Part shown: positions 17,549 to 61,035 of the stretch, piece after piece | Layout of the letters: each line of letters starts with the position of its first letter | Position numbering within the stretch: the stretch's first letter is position 1 | Assembly: GCA_039707465.1 (NCBI GenBank) | Contig: CM077644.1 | Span: 222,103,962-222,167,961 of the forward strand | DNA from: Rhabdophis nuchalis | Taxonomy: Eukaryota; Chordata; Lepidosauria; Squamata; Natricidae | DNA: 64,000 bases | Reading direction: 5' to 3' | The notes under the pieces: generated by a model | The model's input: only the letters and a program-made list of their open reading frames with translations | Told to the model about the DNA's origin: nothing | Database searches by the model: none | Position numbers and translations under genes: made by a program

Positions 17549-17860
17549 TAAAGGTGCTTTTTTCAAGAGGCAACTGGAATTTCTTGTTTTTCTTTGAAGA
17601 TGTTTCGCTTCTCATCCAAGAAGCTTCTTCAGCTGTGACTGGATGGTGGGGAATGGAAGGATTTATACTCCTTGCAGGCAACTGGTCATTTGCATTTTTT
17701 AGAGAGTCATTGAGGCCACCTGAAGGTTTATCTGTGTTATGTTGTAGACTGGGGATAGATGATGTCATAACCCCTCTGTCGTATTGCCTCTGTTGAGAGA
17801 GGGCAGTTACTTCTTGAAAAAAGTACCTTTGTGACAACCATGATCTAGATGACTGAGAAT
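17549..17860 (-). repeat. Snapback repeat with hammerhead-like motif
   Basis: On the minus strand, 17594-17633 reads CTGAAGA, then a GCTTCT/AGAAGC stem with a 6-nt loop, then GAAAC-ATC. This matches the hammerhead order CUGANGA-stem II-GAAA except for AUC where family members have GUC. The surrounding sequence is shared with 19508-19840, 25745-25965 and 33957-34090. A Penelope-like origin is inferred, not shown. Confidence 0.5.
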
Positions 17861-44534: not shown

Positions 44535-44972
44535 GTTTCCAGGGCGGCTTATTGTTATACTCATTTCATTTCATTTCATTTATTAAATTTATACCCTGCC
44601 CTTCTCCAAACGGACTCAGGGCGGCGCACAGGAATATTAAAAATACCTACAAAACCATATAAAAATTTAAAAAACGTATTCAATGAAATCCTGCGCTAAA
44701 ACCAAATTAAAATCCCCAAATTTAAAACTATCTAAGAGTCAGTAATGGAGGTTACGCTAGGGCGGCTAGATGGAACAAATGTGTCTTTAGACACTTGCGG
44801 AAGAGGCGGAGGTCGGAGATGGTGCGAAGTTCAGGGGGTAGGTCGTTCCAAAGGGCTGGGCCCGCCACAGAGAAGGCTCTTCCCCTGGGTGTCGCCAGCC
44901 GGCACTCTGCGGCCGACGGCACCCTAAGGAGGCCCTCTCTGTGGGAGCGTATCGGACGGGAGGAGACGGAAG
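44535..44972 (-). pseudogene. L2-clade LINE, 3' part of an interrupted minus copy
   Basis: On the minus strand it encodes [20 protein letters not shown], then [20 protein letters not shown] and LKTHLFHLAALA followed by a stop and the L2 3' UTR. The tail of ATTTC repeats is at the left edge. Its missing upstream part lies at 48179-48486, beyond the inserted plus-strand L2. Confidence 0.85.
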
Positions 44973-47900
44973 GATCCGATATGAGGGGGGAATTACGAGT
45001 CGTTCCGCCGGAGGGCATATCAATCCAGACGGTCGTGGGGAGGGGCAGGGCCGAGGGGAGACAAGTTCCATCCTCCCGGTTGGTGGCACGTAGCCGTTGG
45101 TTACAAACGGTCGGGTGCCACAACCCCCGCAGGCTAGGTGGTCAGGGGATACAGAGCCAGGGCCTGCGGCTGATGTTTTGCAACGCCAGGTCCGTGGTCA
45201 ACAAAGCCCCCCTCGTCCATGACCTTGTGTCAGAGGGGGAGCCGGACCTGGTAGGAATTGCAGAGACCTGGTTGGGCCACGAGGGAGGACTTCCCCTCGT
45301 CGAAATGTGCCCACCAGGTTACTGCGCTTTTCATCAGTCGCGGGCCCTAGGCAGGGGCGGTGGGGTAGCGGTCATTATCAAGGAAGGCCTTGAGCCGAGA
45401 GAGACCATTGTGCCTCAGACTACCAGTTGTGAGTCCCTCTGCGTGAAGTGGGGCCTAGGGAGGCAGTTGGGCTTGCTGGTTGTATACCTGGCTCCCCGCT
45501 ATGTAGCAGCAGCCCTGCCCGAGCTCCTGGAGGTGATCGCTACGGTGGCAGTTGAGACCCCCAGACTTGTAGTCATGGGGGACTTTAATCTGCCATCGTT
45601 GGGCGAATCATCCGAGGCAGCTCGGGAGTTCATGGCCTCCATGACGGCCATGGACCTGACCCAACTAATTCAAGGCCCCACCCACGAGGGTGGACATACG
45701 CCGGATCTCATCTTTGTCTCGGGCCAATGGAAGAGTGATCTGGGTATAGGGGATATAGTCATCACACCCTTGTCATGGTCAGACCACTCACTTCTCCGAC
45801 TCGACCTTCCGACCGCTACTCCCCGTTGCGGGGAGGCGGAACCAGAACTTCCTATCTGGTTTCGCCCCAGGCGCCTGATGGACCCTGTTGGGTTCCAGAC
45901 GGTGCTTGGGCCACTTCCTGTACCCCTGACCCGCGCCCCAATGGAGGACCTCGTGGCCGCATGGAATACTGCGACCACGGGAGCCTTGGATCGGGTCGCG
46001 CCCTTGCGGCCTCTCTTGCGGCGCGGAGCCGCCCCGGCTCCTTGGTTCACCGAGGAGCTGAGGGCGATGAAACGCCGCAAGAGATGCCTAGAGGGAAGAT
46101 GGAGGGCTACTCGCTCCGAATCTGACCGGACACAGGTAAGAGCCCATTTACGGACTTACATTGTGGCGCTGAGAGTGGCCAAACGCCATCATTGCGCCAC
46201 TCTCATAGCATCCGCAGAAAACCGCCCTGCCGCCCTGTTTAGGGTGACCCGTTCCCTCCTGCAACAGAGGGTGCGGGAAGCCCCGCTACAGGGTAGAGCA
46301 GAGGAATTTGTGACTTTTCTGCAGGACAAAACCGCTCAGATACGGAACGAGCTAGCCCCCATTCGTGGCCCAGTGGGATGCCATGAGGCTGATCTTGTTT
46401 GGGAGGAATTTGACTCCGTTGCTTCCGAGGATATGGACAGGTTACGTGGACGACTGCGAGCCACCACATGTTTATTGGACCCGTGTCCCGCCTGGCTTGT
46501 ACTGGCATCCTGGGAGGTGACACGAGGCTGGCTCCAAGAGGTTGTCAACGCTTCTTTAAGTGAGGGTTCCTTGCCTGCTTCCCTAAAAGAGGCTATGGTG
46601 AGGCCCCTCCTTAAGAAGCCCTCTTTGGACCCAGCTCTTTTAACCAACTACCGTCCCGTCTCCAACCTTCCCTTTCTGGCGAAGGTTGTTGAGAGTGTGG
46701 TGGCACAACAGTTTCCCCATCACCTGGAGGAAGTTGATTATCTAGACCCGCGCCAGTCCGGCTTTCGGCCCGGGCATAGCACCGAGACGGCATTGGTCGC
46801 GTTGGTGGATGATCTCTGGAGAGCCAGAGATGGGGGTTGTTCCTCCATCCTGGTCCTATTAGACCTCTCGGCGGCTTTCGATACCATCGACCATGGTATC
46901 CTATTGCATCGGCTGGGGAGGTTGGAGGTGGGAGGCACCGTTTTACGGTGGTTCTCCTCCTACCTCTCTGGCTGATCGCAATTTGTGTTGGCAGGAGAGC
47001 AGAGGTCGACCCCGAGATCCCTCACATGTGGGGTGCCTCAGGGGTCAGTCCTCTCGCCTCTCTTGTTTAATGCATACATGAAGCCGCTGGGTGAGATCAT
47101 CCGTGGTTTCGGGGTAGAGTACCATCTCTACGCTGATGATACTCAGCTGTATATATCTACCCCAAACCACCCCAACGATGCCGTAGCGGTGATGTGCCAG
47201 TGCCTGGAAGCCGTGCGGATCTGGATGGGAAGTAACGGACTCAGGCTCAACCCGACCAAGACCGAGTGGCTGTGGTTTCCGGCTGCCCGATTCAACCAGC
47301 TTTCTCCAACGCTGGCCATAGGGGGCGAACATCTTGCCCCTGTGGATGGGGCGCGCAATTTGGGAGTCCTCCTGGATACCCGGCTGTCTATGGAAGAGCA
47401 AGTGACAGCCGTGGCCAGGAGGGCGTTTTACCAGGTTCGCCTGGTTCGCCAATTGCGCCCCCTATTGGATCGGGATGCCCTCCGCACAGTCACTCATGCC
47501 CTCGTGACATCCCGACTGGACTACTGTAACTCTCTCTACATGGGGCTCCCCTTGAGGTGCACCCGGAGGCTTCAGTTAGTTCAGAATGCAGCCGCGCGAG
47601 CAATTATGGGAACCACTAGGTTTACCCATGTAACACCGCTCTTGCGCGAGCTGCACTGGCTGCCTGTCGTCTTCCGGGTGCGCTTCAAGGTGTTAGTTAT
47701 CATCTTTAAAGCGCTCCATGGCTCGGGACCTAGCTACCTGCGGGATCGGATCCTGCCTCACACATCCTCACGGCCGATTCGCTCCCACAGAGAGGGACTT
47801 CTCCGGGTGCCGTCCACTAGACTGTGTCAGCGGGCGACGCCCAGGGGAAGGGCTCTCTCTGTGGTGGGCCCGGCCCTCTGGAACGACCTTCCCCCCGATA

Positions 47901-48178
47901 TTAGAATGACCACGGACCTCCGCTCCTTCCGCCTGAAACTAAAGACACATCTTTTCCGCCTGGCCGGCCTAGGGTAGTCTCTCTCTCTATGGGTTTTTTA
48001 ATTGTTTATTTATATTTAGTGGGGATTTTTAGTTAATGGGATTTTAGCACAGGAATTAGTTTAATCTGTTTTAAATTGTATGTATTTTGTATATTTATTG
48101 TTTTTATTTTCCCTGTGCACCGCCCCGAGTCCCTTTGGGGAGAGGGAGCGGTTAATAAATTCAACTTTATTATTATTA
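44973..48178 (+). mobile_element. L2-clade LINE, nearly complete, inserted in another L2
   Basis: The 3.2-kb plus-strand copy carries endonuclease, RT and a 3' UTR ending CACCGCCCCGAGTCCCTTTG, GGTTAATAAATTCAACTT and (ATT)n. The flanks join into one continuous minus-strand L2 reading DRLLPHTS on one side and SRPIRSHRE on the other. That places this insertion inside an older copy. Confidence 0.9.
44981..47977 (+). pseudogene. L2-type ORF2 with one in-frame stop
   Basis: One frame runs from an ATG at 44981 to 47977, broken only by TGA at 46973-46975. The endonuclease shows NARSVVNK (from 45182), GIAETWLGHEGG, GDFNLPS (GDF at 45578-45586) and WSDHSLL (near 45776). RT blocks follow: MVRPLLKKPSLDPALLTNYR, QSGFRPGHSTETAL, LLDLSAAFDTIDHGILL; after the stop come [25 protein letters not shown] (YADD at 47129-47140), [14 protein letters not shown] and the C-terminal [10 protein letters not shown]. 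The stop sits at an expected arginine codon, so a CpG transition (CGA to TGA) is the likely cause. Homologous copies lie at 41060-42028 and on the minus strand nearby. Inactive as it stands. Confidence 0.92.
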
Positions 48179-52584: not shown

Positions 52585-53425
52585 CACCCCTTTCTTCAGT
52601 TTTCCCATAATACCTGCCTACCTGTGAAGTGGGATGGACTGGTCTAAAGACAACCAATCCAACATTTTAATTTATATATCACTTTTTATCATGGGGGGGG
52701 GGGGAATGAAAAAAAAAGACCAATAGCTGTAATAGTTAGTAATCCTGGTTACAAGTATTCTGCTATATTCATTTTTCAATGGTCTTCATAAGATGAATAC
52801 ACAATTCAGAATAAATATATTCAGAAATAAGTAAATTCAACAGAACTTAATCTTAGCTAAATAGGATTAACATTTAATCAAGTCAAGATGTTTCCAAACA
52901 GCCAAGGGCCATTATGCTTAATTAACTAAGGGTGAGCAAGCTTCATGGATGAAAAAAAATTAGGGGACCCAATTGGATTTAATACTTAGTGGACTACCCT
53001 CAATTAATCTAAGTTGTTTATTTATTTTGGATGAGATCATTTTCTGAAGGTATTGAGATATGGAGTAATTTGGTTCCTGATTTATCCTTCTTTCTTACCA
53101 ATTTTTAAAATCCTATGTTAGCATGTTTCCCCCTATCTCCATTTCTTCTGTCCTGTTATATTCATTGCAAAAAAATGGTGATTTGTAATACAGCCCTAGA
53201 AAAATACAGTAAGCATCTACAGTATAAATCAAGAATACAAACAAAAGAAATCTATATATGGATTCAACCAGTAACAAATCGTGTCACCTAATACCCCAAT
53301 GCTTTCTGAACTTGTTCAGCTTTTAATACCTTAAGAGATATGGTTGATTAATTTTTATCTTGAAGATACATACACACAGAGAGAGAGAGAGAGAGAAAGA
53401 TGGCAGCTGCGAAGCCACAGGCACC
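52585..53425. other. Non-coding DNA, nothing recognised
   Basis: Contains a G-run at 52695-52705 and a short (GA)n near 53379-53399; nothing else. Confidence 0.5.
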
Positions 53426-53468
53426 AGCTGGAAGATGGCGAGTGAGACCTTGTCGAAATGTTGCAAAG
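53426..53468 (+). ncRNA. Degraded hammerhead-like motif in a Penelope terminus
   Basis: CTGGAAGAT, a GGCGAG/CTTGTC stem, then GAAAT-GTT. It parallels the minus-strand motif at 54211-54254, but the first core block has an extra G and the pairing uses G-U wobbles, so it is probably inactive. Confidence 0.45.
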
Positions 53469-53512
53469 ACAACCTCAATCTTACACGGGAAATTTTCACA
53501 GGTGTAGGTATG

Positions 53513-54018
53513 CTGATCTTGTATTTGGGTCTTTTCTTACACAACAAGAACAGGAAAACGACATCGCCCTCCTCCCTTACATCAAAGGCACCACAGACAA
53601 AATCGGCAAAATTCTCCACAAGCACAATATCAAGACAGCCTTCAACACTGACCAAAAAATAACCAACATCCTAAGAAATCCCAAAGACAAGATCCAGCTA
53701 GTCTACAAAATTCCAAGCAAAATCTGCCCTGCAACTTACATAGGACAAACTAATAGGAGAATAAATGCATGCATCGCAGAACATAAAAATGCAGTAAAAA
53801 AACCCAACTTAAAACCTCATCCCTCTACCAACAACTCAAAGCTATAGGACATGATATTGACTTTGAAAGAACCAAATTAATCTCCAAAACTGAACAGCTC
53901 AACAGGAGAATAATCAGAGAAGCCATCGAAATAGAGAAACAACCTCACAACCTGAACAAATGTGATGATACCTCCTGCCTACCAGACATCTCAAAACCAC
54001 CACTGGCCAACAGATGAG
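53513..54018 (+). pseudogene. Penelope-like protein: RT C-terminus and GIY-YIG endonuclease
   Basis: It reads FLTQQEQENDIALLPYIKGT, then KIGKILHKHNIKTAF and LVYKIPS...ATYIGQTNRRIN with EHKNAV. This is the GIY-YIG nuclease core (LVY for GIY, YIG intact) of Penelope-like retroelements. A frameshift near 53810 shifts the continuation KAIGHDIDFERTK, EQLNRRIIREAIEIEKQ, which ends at a TGA near 54016. In active elements the enzyme nicks DNA and primes reverse transcription. This copy is a decayed C-terminal fragment. Confidence 0.83.
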
Positions 54019-54210
54019 CCCCACCCACCACCCAAACCGTTGAAATACAAAATAAAGAGGAACACACAGATAGTACCAATCAGACCAATCTACCAATCAT
54101 GATGCAACTGCACAGCCAATCAACCCACTCACAGCAACAAAGCCAGCACTCCACCCCCCCCCCCAAGATTTAAGGAAGGGCGGCATCTACGCAGGCACAG
54201 ACTGAAGCCT

Positions 54211-54254
54211 GAAGCAACGTTTCGGCAAGATCTCACTTGCCATCTTCAGGCTTC
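54211..54254 (-). ncRNA. Candidate hammerhead ribozyme of the Penelope-like element
   Basis: On the minus strand: stem I GAAGC, core CUGAAGA, an extra U, stem II GGCAAG/CUUGCC with a 6-nt loop, GAAA, a 2-bp helix III (AC/GU), cleavage triplet GUU, then GCUUC closing stem I. Hammerheads with minimal helix III are known in Penelope-like terminal repeats. The extra U before stem II makes activity uncertain. Confidence 0.6.
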
Positions 54255-54602
54255 GGTCTGCGGTTACAAAGGCATCGCCCTTCCTTAAATCTTGGTGGGG
54301 TGTGTGTGTGGAGTGCTGACTGTTGTTGTGAGTGGGTTGATTGGCTGTGCAGCTGTATCATGATTGGTAGATTGATGCTGATTGGTCTTATTTGTATGTT
54401 TCTCCTTATTTTGAATTTCAATGGTTTGGATGGAGGGTGGAGCTCGTCTGTTGGTCAGTGCTGGTTTCCAGATGTCTGGTAGGCAGGAGGTGTCGTCACA
54501 TTTGTTCATATTGTTAGGTTGCTTCTCTATTTCAATGGCTTCTCTGATTATTCTCCTGTTCAGCTGTTCAGCCTTGGAGATCAATTTAGTTCCTTGAATC
54601 AA
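54255..54602 (-). pseudogene. Penelope-like element, inverted second copy
   Basis: The minus strand encodes TKLISKAEQLNRRIIREAIE, CDDTSCLPDIWKPALTNRRA and beyond. This is the same C-terminal segment as 53870-54200, without the stop seen there. The two copies face each other tail to tail, forming an inverted repeat with arms of about 340 bp. Confidence 0.85.
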
Positions 54603-54611
54603 TTTAGTTCC

Positions 54612-54712
54612 TCATCACCAGAGACCATCTAGACAGAAAACTATGAGTTCTGTTGTGTATTACAGAATGGAACTCATAGCTTTCTGTCTAGATGGTCTCT
54701 GGTGATGAGCTG
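54612..54712. repeat. Inverted repeat at the head of the tRNA/hammerhead unit
   Basis: CATCACCAGAGACCATCTAG (from 54614) and its complement near 54690-54710 form arms of about 40 bp around a short spacer with GTGTATTAC. The left arm is a reversed partial copy of the unit's 5' segment. Confidence 0.85.
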
Positions 54713-54978
54713 AAAAGCAGAAAAGGAAAGCAGTATGCTTCCTCCCTTGATTGGGGCTTAACAGGGTGTTGTGACACAAGTATATACTTATCTTCCTGTC
54801 TCAGCTGATCAGGAAGAGAACCTGGTGGCCTAATGGCTAAGGCTCCTGCCTAGCATGTAATACAGCTCCGGTTCAAATCCCAGTAAGGGTATGGCTAGCT
54901 GATGAGAGCTAAAAAGCTTGAAATAGATCTATACTACTCTCCCTGACTTATTTATTGATCAGCTCAAAAACGCAACAC
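54669..54978 (+). mobile_element. tRNA-head/hammerhead composite unit 1 (most complete)
   Basis: The order is: a 5' segment (GGAACTCATAGCTTTCTGTC, a GGTGATGA/AGAAA hairpin near 54700, GGGTGTTGTGACACAAG), then a tRNA-like Pol III head with A box TGGCCTAATGG (about 54831) and B box GGTTCAAATCC (about 54870), then a hammerhead motif (54887-54943), then the tail CTTATTTATTGATC with AACGCAACACAC. The unit is about 310 bp with no protein frame. Related units follow to 58440 and at 60880. Confidence 0.85.
54887..54943 (+). ncRNA. Hammerhead ribozyme motif, copy 1 (core intact)
   Basis: The core CUGAUGA is at 54899-54905. Stem II is GAGCU-AAAA-AGCUU, and GAAA lies at 54920-54923. Helix III is the palindrome AUAGAUCUAU, then the cleavage triplet AUA and stem I (GGCUAG with CUACUC, one mismatch). 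Confidence 0.8.
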
Positions 54979-55148
54979 ACACACATATATATACACATAC
55001 ACATACATACATACATAAATACATATAATGTCATAACATCCTGATAAGGTCCAAATATGGGAGGGAGCAGAACTGCTTCCCTTTTCTGTCTTTTGGCTCA
55101 CCCTAGGAGCCATCCAGGCAGAAAGCTATTTTTTCATTGCCTTTGTTA

Positions 55149-55150
<2 letters not shown>

Positions 55151-55200
<50 letters not shown>
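55151..55200 (+). repeat. (TG)n microsatellite
   Basis: 50 bp of TG repeat. Confidence 0.97.
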
Positions 55201-55203
<3 letters not shown>

Positions 55204-55415
55204 AAGCTGGTTAATATATCAGATGTGCCTGCAAGATGGAAGAAGAGGGAAGAGGGAAGAGGGAGGAAGCCAGAGAGAACGCTGTTAAATCAACATCAGA
55301 CAGCTCAGTGTTATTTCCTGGGGAGGAACAGCTCAAGCTGTGTTCGATAAGGGAGGAAGGAATAGGAGCATTGATTAACATGCCTGAAATTGAAATTGCC
55401 ACTGAGCCACAGGAT

Positions 55416-55530
55416 CTCCTCCTTGATCAGCTGAGCTCATACATAATATTTCCCAAGTTCAAATCCCAGTAAGGGTATGGCTAGCTGATGAGAGCTAAAT
55501 AGCTTTAAATAGATCTATACTAGTCTCCCT

Positions 55531-55565
<35 letters not shown>

Positions 55566-55590
55566 TCAGCACAAACGTAACACACACAAA
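55416..55590 (+). mobile_element. tRNA/hammerhead unit 2 (head partly lost)
   Basis: CTTGATCAGCTGAGC, then GTTCAAATCCCAGTAAGGG with the A-box part missing, a hammerhead at 55473-55529, then a (TTTA)n tail and AACGTAACACAC. Confidence 0.78.
55473..55529 (+). ncRNA. Hammerhead motif, copy 2 (GAAA changed to TAAA)
   Basis: CUGAUGA (55485-55491) and stem II GAGCU-AAAU-AGCUU are kept. The essential G of GAAA is U at 55506, so cleavage is not expected. Confidence 0.75.
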
Positions 55591-55632
55591 CATGTGTGTG
55601 TTTGTGTGTATGTGTGTGTGTGTTACGTTTTT

Positions 55633-57615
55633 TTTTAATTGAAAAAGTTTTATTGGTTTTACATTTTTCTATAGGGTAGGGTAAGGGATACAAAGAAATT
55701 TTGAGAGCATTCACGTCAGAGTCGTCGGCCCTTCCGAGACCTCAAAATACACAATAAAAAAATAACAAAAAAAAGCATTTTTCATAACACTACAAGGTAA
55801 AAGCAAGTACATATACCTAAATTCTCAATTCCATGCTGTCAGACATTTACAAAAAATCCAGATACAGATATTATGCAAAATTGTTCAAAAAAATCAAGGC
55901 AAAGTTATTTTTTCGATCTAAGTCTCTTGGCTATTGTATCTTCTTTTTCTCCTCCCTGGCCCCGAGCGGGCGGGGCCGTGGCCCCCTCCGTCCCCCCTGG
56001 ATCTTCCCCCAGGGCAGAGGAATATTTTTTAAGAAAGGCTTCCGCCTCAGCAACTGTTTTAATCCTCACTCTTCCTCCTTCCCAGAACACCAGCATCCCT
56101 TCGGGTGTCACCCACTTGAACCAAATCCCATGATCAAATAAAATTTTAGACAAGAAGGAAAATTTCCTCCTTGCTTCTCGAATCTTTCTAGGAATCTGCT
56201 TCAAGATAGTGACCGTTTTTTGTTGGTAAATTAAAGGGTTGTCTCTCTGCGCCCTCAGGATTTCCTCTCTGGTTGACCTTCTAACAAATTTCACATGTAT
56301 CTCTCTAGGCACTTCATTTATCCTGGCATATGCTGAGTTAATTCTATAGGCTAGGTCAATGTCCCCCCTGATCTCATCTTTAGGTTTTTGTAAATAGTCT
56401 GCTAAAATTGTGCTCATAAGATCAGGGAGGCATTCACCAGATTCCTCAAGAACGTTCTGAAATCTCAAAAAATATGTCATTCTTTCCATATCAATCCTAG
56501 ACACATGCCCATCTATTTCCCCAACCTCTTTAGTAACATTTTTAATCTCTCCCTTAACCCCCACCAACCCCCCTTCCAATTCTTCAGTCTTCTGTTTGTT
56601 TTCCAGCATTTGCTTCCTTGTGTCCAGTAGCTCCTTCTTGAAATTGATGTTTTCAGCCCTCTGGGCCTGAATTTCGTTTACCAAAGTTTGTATAACAGTT
56701 TCAAGAGAAGCCATCCGTTGTTCTAAACTTGCCAGTGCTGTTTCTTGAGCCATGATTAACTGTTAAAGTCAGTGCCACCAAAATGGCGTTTTCAGGGTGG
56801 GGTTGGTGAGACTAACCGGGAGCCAAAAGTTCAGATCAAGGTTGAAACGTTGTAAAATTCAGGAACCAAGAGAGAGACAATTTTCCAGCTCAATAGTTAT
56901 AATAACGAAGGTAATCCAGAAAGGAATCACAAATCCAACAAGAAAAAAATTCTTCATTAATATCCAGAGAGAGTCCCACTTGTAAAGAGACGCTGGAAAT
57001 TTTCCATAGTTAAAATAGTCAGGCAGGGACAAAGAAAAGCCACTTTCCACCGCCCATCTCAGAGCCCAGAGGAGAGAGTAGAAAAATAAATTTTTTTTAA
57101 CCAGCCAGACCTAGAAACAATGTTGCAAGTAGCCGCATACCACTTTCCCTTGTTAGAGACAGTCCGGATTTAAGATTTCCGCTTTCTCTTCCAGAGAAGC
57201 CATTTTTAAGTGCCGCTTAAGTCCGAGGGGTTTTTTTTTAAAACAAACACCCCCCTCCCAGTCCATTCAGCCTGGCTGGCAGCAAGGAAAAAAAAGTCTT
57301 TTTAAACTCACTCTCCCTCGCAGCTGAAGCCTCGGCAAGCCTTCCGATCTCTTCCGCTCAGCCCTCTACATTGAAGTGAATGGCGCCGACAGCCGTTGGC
57401 GAAGGGAGAACCCCCCGCAGCATGTTCCTCCTCACCTAGGTCGCGGAGGGGATCGCTCTCCCCACCGCCGTGAGGAGAAACGTCTCCTCCGAGCCGACCC
57501 TACGGGAGACCTCCGGTAACCGGATGTCTCGCCCCCGTGGGGGGGCAGAAAAGGCAACAAAGCGGCGAGCGAGCCCCAGGCTCGCCCGTCGCCGCTGGAG
57601 CCGGAACCGGAAGCC
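55633..57615 (-). mobile_element. Full-length ORF1-only L1 ('half-L1'), second copy
   Basis: A perfect 16-bp TSD, TGTGTGTTACGTTTTT, lies at 55617-55632 and 57616-57631. On the minus strand the element starts GGCTTCCGGTTC (GACTTCCGGTTC in the copy at 8324), carries the same GC-rich 5' UTR, one ORF1 and the same 3' UTR ending AATAAAACTTTTTCAAT. No ORF2 is present. It interrupts the junction between tRNA/hammerhead units 2 and 3. Confidence 0.93.
55905..56753 (-). CDS. L1 ORF1p-like RNA-binding protein, second copy
   Basis: This intact 282-aa frame has the same length and architecture as 9188-10036: an N-terminal coiled coil (MASLETVIQTLVNEIQAQRA onward), an RRM with LRFQNVLEESGECLPDLM and PREIHVKFVRRSTREEI, a C-terminal domain with ILKQIPRKIREARRKF and WFKWVTPEGMLVFWEGG, and the basic end AKRLRSKK. 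About 21 of 282 residues differ between the copies, mostly conservatively and concentrated outside the RRM. Two open frames in elements without ORF2 suggest recent activity or a role for the encoded protein in mobilising its own RNA. Confidence 0.9.
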   Translation of the reverse strand: MAQETALASLEQRMASLETVIQTLVNEIQAQRAENINFKKELLDTRKQMLENKQKTEELEGGLVGVKGEIKNVTKEVGEIDGHVSRIDMERMTYFLRFQNVLEESGECLPDLMSTILADYLQKPKDEIRGDIDLAYRINSAYARINEVPREIHVKFVRRSTREEILRAQRDNPLIYQQKTVTILKQIPRKIREARRKFSFLSKILFDHGIWFKWVTPEGMLVFWEGGRVRIKTVAEAEAFLKKYSSALGEDPGGTEGATAPPARGQGGEKEDTIAKRLRSKK

Positions 57616-57631
57616 TGTGTGTTACGTTTTT

Positions 57632-57727
57632 GAGATGATCAATAAATAAGTCAGGGAGACTAGTATAGATCTATTTTGAGCTTTTTAGTTCTCATCAGCT
57701 AGCCATACCCTTACTGTGATTTGAACC
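57632..57727 (-). mobile_element. tRNA/hammerhead unit 3 (minus, head truncated)
   Basis: Minus-strand tail, hammerhead and the TCAAATCACAGTAAGGG part of the head. Before the half-L1 inserted it lay tail to tail with unit 2, sharing the GTTACGTTTTTGAG segment. It meets unit 4 head to head at 57727. Confidence 0.78.
57654..57710 (-). ncRNA. Hammerhead motif, copy 3 (GAAA changed to AAAA)
   Basis: The minus strand CUGAUGA (57692-57698) is intact. Stem II has one mismatch, and the conserved G before AAA is A. Confidence 0.72.
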
Positions 57728-57890
57728 TGATCAGGAAGAGAACCTGGCTAAGGCTCCTCCCTAGCATGTAATACAGCCCCGGTTCAAATCCCAGTAAGGG
57801 TATGGCTAGCTGATGAGAGCTAAAAAGCTCGAAATAGATCTATACTAGTCTCCCTGACTTATTTATTGATCGGCTCAAAAATGTAACACA
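57728..57890 (+). mobile_element. tRNA/hammerhead unit 4
   Basis: CTGATCAGGAAGAGAACC, an A-box region shortened by a deletion (AACCTGGCTAAGG), B box GGTTCAAATCC, the hammerhead, and the tail CTTATTTATTGATCGG with AATGTAACACAC. Confidence 0.82.
57798..57854 (+). ncRNA. Hammerhead ribozyme motif, copy 4 (best copy)
   Basis: CUGAUGA lies at 57810-57816, stem II GAGCU-AAAA-AGCUC pairs perfectly, and GAAA is at 57831-57834. Helix III is the 10-nt palindrome AUAGAUCUAU, H17 is A at 57844, and stem I is GGCUAG with CUAGUC (6 bp, one G-U) plus an outer GGG/CCC. All invariant core positions are present. Confidence 0.85.
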
Positions 57891-57896
57891 CATATA

Positions 57897-58030
57897 AAAA
57901 AATTACACAGCGGAACTCATAGCTTTCTGTCTAGATGGTCTCTGGTGATGAGCCGAAAGGCAGAAAAGGAGAGCAGTATGCTTCCTCCCTTAATTGGGGC
58001 TTAACAGGGTGTTGTGACACAAGTATATAT
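57897..58030 (+). mobile_element. 5' segment of the tRNA/hammerhead unit, separate copy
   Basis: It matches 54669-54790: GGAACTCATAGCTTTCTGTC, a GGTGATGA-GCC-GAAA-GGC-AGAAA hairpin, then CAGGGTGTTGTGACACAAG. Its tRNA head is missing, and it runs into the tail of minus unit 5. Confidence 0.78.
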
Positions 58031-58069
58031 ATTTGTTTCATTGACTTTTGTTTCCATTTGTGTTTTGTT

Positions 58070-58312
58070 TGTGCTGATAAATAAATAAACAAGGGAGACC
58101 AGTATAGATCTATAGACTAGTATAGATCTATTACAAGCTATTTAGCGCTCATCAGCTAGCCATACCCTTACTGGGATTCGAATCGGGGCTGTGTTACATG
58201 TTAGGCAGATGTTTTAGCCACTAAGCCACCAGGTTCTCCTCCTGATCAGCTAAGCCAGGGGAATAAGTATATACTTGTGTCACAACACCCTGGTAAGCCC
58301 CAATTAAGCCCT
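58070..58312 (-). mobile_element. tRNA/hammerhead unit 5 (minus)
   Basis: On the minus strand: GGGTGTTGTGACACAAG, TCAGGAGGAGAACC, A box TGGCTTAGTGG, B box GATTCGAATCC, hammerhead, and tail. The helix III region is duplicated (AGTATAGATCTAT twice). Confidence 0.82.
58115..58168 (-). ncRNA. Hammerhead motif, copy 5 (GAAA changed to GTAA)
   Basis: The minus strand CUGAUGA (58150-58156) and stem II GCGCU-AAAU-AGCUU are present. One conserved A of GAAA is U, so this copy is probably inactive. Confidence 0.72.
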
Positions 58313-58321
58313 AAGCCCCTT

Positions 58322-58440
58322 CGAAACACAGTAAGGGTATGGCTAGCTGATGAGAGCTAAATAGCTTGAAATAGATCTATACTAGTCTCCCTTGTTTATT
58401 TATTTATCAGCACAAACACACACACACACACACACGTACA
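58322..58440 (+). mobile_element. tRNA/hammerhead unit 6 (head lost)
   Basis: Starts at CACAGTAAGGG just upstream of the hammerhead and ends in (TTTA)n, ATCAGCACAAAC and (CA)n. Confidence 0.78.
58335..58391 (+). ncRNA. Hammerhead ribozyme motif, copy 6 (core intact)
   Basis: CUGAUGA is at 58347-58353, stem II is GAGCU-AAAU-AGCUU, and GAAA is at 58368-58371. Helix III is the palindrome AUAGAUCUAU, and stem I GGCUAG/CUAGUC has an outer GGG/CCC. Confidence 0.83.
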
Positions 58441-60879: not shown

Positions 60880-61035
60880 AAAGAAATAAAGGGAGACTAG
60901 CATAGACATATTTCAAGCTATTTAGTATTCATCAATTAGCCATACCCTTCTGGGATTCGAATCCAGGCTACTTGCATATTAGGTAGGTGTATTAACCTCT
61001 AAGCCACAGATTCTCCTTGCCTTGTCAGCTATACC
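60880..61035 (-). mobile_element. tRNA/hammerhead unit 7 (outlying, minus)
   Basis: On the minus strand: GACAAGGCAAGGAGAATC, TGGCTTAGAGG (A box), GGATTCGAATCC (B box), then the hammerhead. It lies 2.4 kb from the main cluster, so the family is dispersed and not only a local array. Confidence 0.78.
60891..60948 (-). ncRNA. Hammerhead motif, copy 7 (C3 changed to U)
   Basis: The minus strand reads UUGAUGA in place of CUGAUGA, with GAAA retained and stem II degraded. Loss of C3 should abolish activity. Confidence 0.68.

Follow-up and report, generated by a model that had tools for sequence, protein, structure and literature searches.

A hammerhead-bearing, retrozyme-like repeat associated with Penelope-like elements in the genome of the snake Rhabdophis nuchalis

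Features of the locus

We analyzed a 64,000-nucleotide stretch of the Rhabdophis nuchalis genome (GenBank assembly GCA_039707465.1, contig CM077644.1, positions 222,103,962 to 222,167,961 of the forward strand; G000:C2:222103962-222167961 in our numbering), hereafter the window, in which a non-coding repeat carrying tRNA-like promoter boxes and a hammerhead ribozyme motif lies directly beside Penelope-like sequence. A first-pass annotation had proposed here a self-cleaving element, resembling a short interspersed element (SINE) or a retrozyme and mobilised by Penelope-like enzymes. We followed this up in the whole assembly (1.918 Gb, 348 contigs). Positions preceded by u refer to the repeat unit of ~334 nt; all others are window positions. 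The relevant features are:

53350..54240, + strand: Penelope-like fragment recognized by genome matches and homologues; C-terminal coding part with a GIY-YIG-type region (frames 53446-53847 and 53787-54017), then a 3' region
54235..54610, - strand: second, inverted Penelope-like fragment with its own hammerhead-like motif, CTGAAGA...GAAAC, from 54249 on the - strand
54611..54659, - strand: inverted head piece of the repeat; gap 0 to the Penelope-like fragment, 5'-to-5' join with unit 1
54659..54981, + strand: unit 1, nearly full length; head, A box (54826-54836), B box (54870-54880), hammerhead (54886-54944)
54886-54944, + strand: unit 1 hammerhead; intact core, one stem I mismatch, predicted cut after 54933
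55457..55546, + strand: unit 2, 5'-truncated; hammerhead 55472-55530 with G12>U
55628..57615, - strand: L1-like insertion, foreign to the repeat, in the 3' tail between units 2 and 3; TGTGTGTTACG flanks it on both sides
57616..57727, - strand: unit 3, 5'-truncated; hammerhead 57711-57653 with G12>A; 5'-to-5' join with unit 4
57727..58029, + strand: unit 4; B box, fully intact hammerhead 57797-57855 (predicted cut 57844/57845), tail, next head
58114..58308, - strand: unit 5; hammerhead with A13>U; 5'-to-5' join with unit 6 across an 11-nt gap
58320..58426, + strand: unit 6, 5'-truncated and lacking a tRNA-like part upstream; intact hammerhead 58334-58392; its AC-rich tail passes into (AC)n
60881..61030, - strand: unit 7, an old copy, ~76% identical to the young unit, whose hammerhead (60948-60890) carries C3>U

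The seven hammerhead motifs of the first-pass annotation are all present, in both orientations: 54879-54949, 55465-55530, 57790-57860 and 58329-58392 on the + strand, and 57716-57648, 58175-58114 and 60954-60890 on the - strand. Its division into three intact cores (CUGAUGA ... GAAA at 54899, 57810 and 58347) and four copies with a disabling core change, given above, also holds. Other parts of that description are only partly borne out. Consensus stems were claimed, and the hammerhead of unit 4 is indeed fully intact, but stem I of unit 1 has a C-C mismatch (CUAC for CUAG). An A box and a B box ahead of the hammerhead are strict in unit 1 but altered or lost in units 4, 5, 6 and 7: the A box of unit 4 was removed by an 11-nt deletion, and in units 5 and 7 the A box is strict but a single base of the B box is altered (GATTCGAATCC). 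None of the seven window copies is complete in every part. The unit does not begin at 54669, as had been thought; it is a tandem unit of ~334 nt whose head starts at ~54659 and appears again after the tail. Nor is 54669..58440 a single repeat stretch, being split by the insertion at ~55628-57615. This element, which we presume to be of L1 type, sits in the AC-rich tail of the repeat and has an open ORF1-like frame (55905-56762, 285 aa) whose only Pfam matches are below the cut-off.

A conserved hammerhead in thousands of copies

The motif has the layout of a type I hammerhead, namely the core CUGANGA ... GAAA ... NUH and three helices, open at stem I. A 35-place pattern of the intact core, GCTAGCTGATGANNGCTNNNNAGCNNGAAATAGAT, has 3,875 + 3,834 = 7,709 exact matches in the genome and the reversed control has 0 + 0; this count covers younger-type copies with an intact core alone. 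A looser pattern, CTGATGA N11 GAAA, was discarded for counting, its 1,919 matches (674 reversed) being inflated by an unrelated repeat, CTGATGAATTTCAGACCAGAAA. That repeat occurs, with near variants, in L001-L008, and makes up several of the 100 listed loose-pattern places.

Pairing was examined in an alignment (A1) of 60 segments, 54 of them distinct, from 93 profile matches, partial and near-identical segments being omitted. Standard pairs fill 97.0% of 967 cells, and only 33-52% are paired when the partners are slid by 1-3 columns. Changes on both sides are found in 9 pairs (shuffle mean 4.8) and in 42 cells (8.1 in shuffles), values reached by 0/500 shuffles in each case. For the inner 14 pairs, which are 97.5% paired, the corresponding counts are 6 vs 2.8 (1/500) and 27 vs 4.9 (0/500); such shuffle controls overstate significance among related sequences. 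The covariation lies between subfamilies and extends to all three stems, and the two positions N7 (T, A or C) and H17 (mostly A or C) are variable. Helix III variants AUAGAUCUAU and AUGGAUCCAU are both palindromic. In old subfamilies (L017, L029, L035), stem I is GGCCAG/CUGGUC instead of GGCUAG/CUAGUC, stem II has different pairs, helix III is GGAUCC rather than AGAUCU, N7 is A or C and H17 is C, with CUGA.GA and GAA kept throughout. Single copies show scattered core changes, as expected of dead copies. As judged from the aligned copies, this pattern of drift is that of a selected ribozyme. Because the pattern gives 7,709 matches and its reverse none, and because the pairs covary, we rule out a chance motif: the hammerhead is real.

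The predicted fold of 57791-57862 in unit 4 comprises stem I, an internal loop (UAU/U), an outer stem (AGGG/CCCU) and stem II (z -1.99), and that of unit 6 comprises stems I and II. As modelled, helix III can be formed by AUA-GAUC-UAU, with three A-U pairs and a tetraloop, or by a ten-base palindrome that joins two molecules.

The first-pass annotation had named the lack of a covariance-model hit as a sign against the ribozyme. At the Rfam gathering thresholds there is indeed none, in the window or in 18 fetched loci; the covariation within the family outweighs this. The best sub-threshold scores are 33.4 bits for Hammerhead_1 (cut-off 34) and 33.8 for Hammerhead_HH9 (cut-off 52), and the family may have been overlooked because Rfam is silent at these cut-offs.

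Organization of the unit and its tRNA-like promoter

Copies were drawn from several sets of loci. L010-L038 were fetched with 57735-57900 as the query and, as best matches, form a biased set; L039-L041 were chosen by eye from the pattern list, and L055-L065 (n=11) were picked by Penelope sequence. With the window, these make up the first set of 44 loci used for join counts, from which L009 (the window itself) and L054 were excluded. The check on bias was a genome-order sample, L066-L085, consisting of the first 20 distinct intact-core loci along contig C1. Twenty control loci comprised 8 from an unrelated repeat and 12 at round-number positions. Same-strand pieces at most 25 nt apart were merged into one repeat arm.

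The unit of ~334 nt is often found in head-to-tail tandem in L010-L038, with eight core-to-core spacings of 331-368 nt. Its order is head (u1-128), spacer, tRNA-like stretch, hammerhead (predicted to cut after u275), AC-rich tail and the next head. Arms longer than one unit account for 29/129, with a maximum of 701 nt. The repeat thus has the short non-coding unit, type I hammerhead and tandem arrangement of a metazoan retrozyme without long terminal repeats (non-LTR).

The linkage of promoter boxes to the hammerhead, suggested from the window, holds in the fetched copies. We counted boxes ahead of 42 distinct cores that are preceded by 110 nt or more of the same unit: a B box is present in 36 cases, a strict A box in 25, and the two together in 22 (shuffles, 0.5% and 0.4%). 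This gives the repeat the internal A and B boxes of a tRNA-derived SINE. ARAGORN finds no tRNA in the window with default settings. With relaxed settings, it calls one in 4/8 tandem units, three of them 73 nt long and in the same place, and makes some call in 8/80 shuffles; at this threshold the reference unit is read as tRNA-Val (aac). Since the default search is empty and relaxed calls are also made in shuffles, we consider the A and B boxes solid and the tRNA ancestry of the stretch, as read from its sequence, only likely. Among the old subfamilies, L039, L017 and L035 have very different tRNA-like stretches (e.g. GGATAGCTCAAGGC) beside the same ribozyme, and this arrangement suggests that the promoter module was replaced. 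The absence of a stop signal (TTTT) for RNA polymerase III (Pol III) was dropped as evidence: 7/8 tandem units are without it, but the comparison with shuffled sequence is 6 vs 14.2 (range 3-30).

Two hairpins, a long one and then a smaller one, make up the fold of the head, which lies before an end point at u125-128. In an alignment of 32 distinct head segments (A2), 94.6% of 671 cells are paired, although the search pattern that retrieved these segments holds some of the columns constant, so that invariant pairs there prove nothing. Cells with a double change number 39 vs 15.8 (0/500 shuffles), while double-change pairs (6 vs 5.6) and pair types (18 vs 19.8) are not above shuffles. We infer that the head is the part recognized by a reverse transcriptase. 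A match to mir-515 falls on the palindrome of inverted heads and was taken as an artefact.

Insertion architecture

The ends of the copies are highly structured. For young-type arms of the first set, 62/96 3' ends fall in u111-130 or u311-330, two intervals covering 40 of the 334 unit positions in which 11.5 would be expected by position alone; the genome-order sample has 35/58. The arm of unit 4, which ends at 58029, uses one of these two preferred ends. The 5' ends are scattered, reflecting variable 5' truncation.

Arms tend to meet by their 5' ends. At gaps of at most 20 nt, where the same-strand class is uncountable because same-strand neighbours less than 26 nt apart are merged as tandem, the first set has 32 5'-5' joins against 5 3'-3' joins, L010-L038 alone 22:3, and the genome-order sample 18:5 (p 0.011). 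Different unit positions are joined in 36/44 5'-5' junctions, indicating that the two arms were primed independently and not copied from each other. A hairpin "snap-back" origin was accordingly rejected for most pairs: equal positions (within 15) are joined in 8/44, and 5 of these 8 come from two satellite-like loci. These loci, L066 (1275-1859) and L080 (1203-1682), contain palindromic repeat pairs recurring every ~220-350 bp, in effect a satellite of hammerhead palindromes.

Many outer ends of the repeat, and some of the Penelope-like sequences, run into AC, AT or tetranucleotide repeats, which may reflect either targeting of microsatellites or their seeding. A single long flanking repeat was seen, of 23 bp at L026.

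Association with Penelope-like elements

The Penelope-like neighbour with a hammerhead-like end of its own, noted in the first pass, is confirmed at 54235..54610. A search of the genome with the window Penelope fragment gave 150 scored matches among 3,408 first-look candidates, many with open frames of hundreds of codons. One such frame, at L063, contains an RVT_1 domain (E 5e-16). Pfam detects no GIY-YIG domain in it and gives no match for the window Penelope frames; some of the 120 listed homologues of the L063 frame carry a GIY-YIG domain or name. The closest named protein relatives of a Penelope-like frame of this genome are squamate, with 80% identity in Podarcis muralis (94% of the query covered) and 83% in Vipera latastei (62% covered). 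The Penelope hammerhead (CTGAAGATGGCAAGTGAGATCTTGCCGAAACG), read by eye, overlaps a possible start codon and differs in sequence from that of the unit.

The two families occur together far more often than in control loci. Unit sequence is present in 10/11 Penelope-picked loci (the exception is L056) and in 0/20 controls (p 2.5e-7), and Penelope sequence in 11/29 unit-picked loci against 0/20 (p 0.0014). Moreover, with simple repeats masked, unit and Penelope arms abut (gap at most 20 nt) at 14 places, the tightest being 54610/54611 in the window (gap 0), L058 (0), L060 (1) and L057 (2). These direct junctions and the insertion architecture make the Penelope link stronger than could be seen in the window. 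The case for mobilisation by a Penelope-like protein is circumstantial.

Comparison with known systems

The closest likeness is to the metazoan non-LTR retrozymes. Type I hammerheads in tandem units of ~330 nt are described from salamanders and invertebrates in the available part of PMC7229834, and these elements share with the snake repeat a weak palindromic helix III, tandem copies and the lack of an open reading frame. The same text gives units of 170-400 nt (330 and 350 in the axolotl), reports transcripts cut to units and circularised in other retrozymes, and describes co-existence with Penelope-like elements, which it names as a strong candidate mover and no more; the words "reptile", "lizard" and "snake" are absent from it. 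In animal retrozyme repeats, no conserved motif indicating a partner is described in the accessible portion of PMC7761336. The snake repeat, known here from DNA alone, differs in having A and B boxes by the ribozyme and direct junctions with Penelope-like sequence.

The schistosome Sm-alpha repeat (W36.2, PMC8490949; tRNA noted in PMC4918200) is, in the sections of these papers at hand, likewise SINE-like, with a tRNA-related part, a type I hammerhead and ~335 bp. Compared by description, it belongs to another host phylum, and a Penelope link is not mentioned in those sections.

PAc, a Penelope element of Anolis, shares with the system proposed here a hammerhead, an AC-rich internal start of reverse transcription, cutting and extension of both strands and an AT-rich target (PMC11167929). 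Its hammerhead overlaps the start codon, as possibly in the snake Penelope element; PAc is protein-coding, unlike the snake repeat, and the ribozyme sequences differ. The purified protein cleaves and extends both strands and begins to copy its RNA template at an internal AC-rich stem loop, and ribozyme cleavage is unnecessary for it in vitro (PMC11167929).

The squamate SINEs Squam1-3 are tRNA-related, ~190-350 nt long and present in many squamate copies, according to the available part of PMC10702118. Compared by description, their tails are A(n), (AC2T3)n, (TA3)n or (CT2)n, whereas the snake repeat has AC/AT ends; "hammerhead" and "penelope" have 0 occurrences in the main text of that paper.

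Among Rfam families, the best match of unit 4 is Hammerhead_HH9 (29 bits; 33.8 for older copies), presumably the amniote intronic ribozyme. It has the same type I layout, and the likeness consists of this layout and a score below the cut-off.

In the open literature searched we found no squamate retrozyme, Repbase, Dfam and SINEBase being outside the search, where so abundant a repeat may well be listed under some name; no joint mention of "hammerhead ribozyme" and "squamate"; and no tie between retrozymes and Penelope beyond shared features and co-existence. Contigs of IMG/VR and GTDB contain no relatives of the repeat, as expected for a reptile repeat. The repeat would be a variant on known retrozymes, and the novelty would lie in unusually informative genomic evidence on what moves it.

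Proposed mechanism and alternative explanations

The repeat is probably a non-coding, non-autonomous retrozyme of the metazoan type, with a Pol III head and a type I hammerhead, moved by a Penelope-like reverse transcriptase. This agrees with the first-pass proposal and fits most of the findings. Pol III would start at the tRNA-like A and B boxes and read through tandem units, and the hammerhead, given its conserved structure, would cut the transcript into unit-length pieces, with the weak palindromic helix III favouring two-molecule folding. By analogy with published retrozymes, the host tRNA ligase may circularise the pieces. A Penelope-like protein of the genome would then take the unit RNA, cut the target within simple repeats rich in AC or AT, and start reverse transcription inside the RNA, at u~125-128 after the structured head or at u~310-327 after the hammerhead. 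Both DNA strands would be primed, so that two 5'-truncated copies, sometimes from different RNAs, meet 5'-to-5'. Such two-sided priming from internal starts would account for fixed outward 3' ends beside AC- or AT-rich DNA and for truncated copies that meet mid-insertion, and templates longer than one unit would be tandem transcripts or circles.

Several observations weigh against this explanation. There is no excess of 5' ends at the ribozyme cut (2/98 in u271-280), so that cleaved linear monomers would not be what is usually copied, and the ends fit circles or multimers left uncut. If uncut RNA is the template, the ribozyme would be dispensable for copying, as was found in vitro (PMC11167929); by analogy, circles would be the simplest answer to why it is retained. 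The fold predictions are imperfect as well: at minimum energy, unit 4 folds without helix III and unit 1 adopts a non-canonical structure, and with the tRNA-like part included, a stretch of 118 nt shows no folding advantage over shuffles (z +0.56). In A1, "further pair types" are weakly above shuffles (19 vs 16.7; 26/500 reach this), and those of the inner 14 pairs are 13 vs 11.7 (99/500). The 5'-5' excess weakens at gaps of at most 60 nt, to 35:18 in the first set (5 same-strand, p 0.03) and 22:11 in the genome-order sample (5 same-strand, p 0.08). The proposed genome search for copies, boundaries and target-site duplications, which did yield the intact cores and preferred 3' ends, gave no excess of the duplications (8/104 clusters vs 5.8 expected, simple repeats at the ends hiding them). 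As to Penelope, its fragment is present in 3/20 genome-order loci (Fisher p 0.23 vs 0/20). The 14 junctions are 5 5'-5', 5 3'-3' and 4 of the same orientation, and nested insertion would give the like. Penelope arms among themselves are 9:3 for 5'-5' vs 3'-3' (p 0.15). Finally, unit and Penelope references share matches of 11-14 nt at most (E >=0.66), and no common recognition motif was found between them.

A different origin would be that of a tRNA-derived SINE moved by a long interspersed element (LINE) of the L1, CR1 or Bov-B type, in which the hammerhead was captured by chance and Penelope merely shares AT- or AC-rich insertion places. The promoter boxes linked to the ribozyme, the relaxed tRNA calls (made in shuffles too), the flanking repeat at L026, and simple-repeat ends in two families without common sequence would all be at home in such an element. 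A tandem arrangement, 3' ends at two internal points in place of a single tail, and arms joined 5'-to-5' would not; nor is there a poly(A) among the listed ends or a general target-site duplication, and the covarying ribozyme argues against a passive passenger. We therefore regard a LINE-driven SINE as unlikely.

Amplification at the DNA level, by which the repeat would be a hammerhead satellite spread by unequal exchange or foldback duplication and no longer, or never, retrotransposed, would explain the tandem units and the recurring palindromic pairs in L066 and L080. It is nonetheless quite improbable: copies are dispersed, with 49 listed matches on 13 contigs, and mostly have one or two units with defined 3' and variable 5' ends, and the unequal positions at most 5'-5' junctions are unlike the product of hairpin duplication. 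Least credible is that the unit is not an element in its own right but is built into the Penelope-like element as a fixed component, either a pseudo-LTR or an internal region. Its presence in nearly all Penelope-picked loci and the hammerhead motifs in both would be expected of such a part, but order and orientation vary over the 14 junctions, 18/29 unit-picked and 17/20 genome-order loci have no Penelope sequence, and the Penelope hammerhead (CTGAAGATGGCAAGTGAGATCTTGCCGAAACG) is a different sequence. This possibility is largely refuted.

Returning to a retrozyme moved by Penelope, we lean slightly toward a more specific form of it: a Penelope-dependent SINE, that is, a Pol III-driven, self-cleaving and probably circular amniote retrozyme that parasitises Penelope through a recognition head of its own and two internal start sites of reverse transcription, and that could give rise to mixed insertions, with one strand derived from retrozyme RNA and the other from Penelope RNA.

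Other features of the window

On the - strand at 17632 and 19551, the window has hammerhead-like strings, CTGAAGAAGCTTCTTGGATGAGAAGCGAAAC and a near copy, apparently of one repeat; by their sequence, they may represent another family of minimal hammerheads. At 44726-47977 on the + strand are LINE frames of 749 and 333 aa, the first with endonuclease and RVT_1 domains, which we take to be CR1/L2-like.

Significance

Animal retrozymes yield abundant self-cut RNA circles, and the enzyme that moves them has so far not been identified. With thousands of copies in one vertebrate genome, the junctions, the end points and the geometry of the strands can be used to ask what the mover is, and they point to Penelope. 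The question can be put to a direct test with unit RNA in the published assay that uses purified Penelope protein (PMC11167929). R. nuchalis is also an amniote in which intact hammerheads located outside Penelope elements number in the thousands; the literature, in the parts available, tells of few, conserved intronic ones (PMC7229834, PMC6155905). If it is indeed a Penelope-dependent SINE, this repeat would be the first animal retrozyme with an identified enzyme, and a candidate source of the hammerheads that were later fixed in amniote introns.

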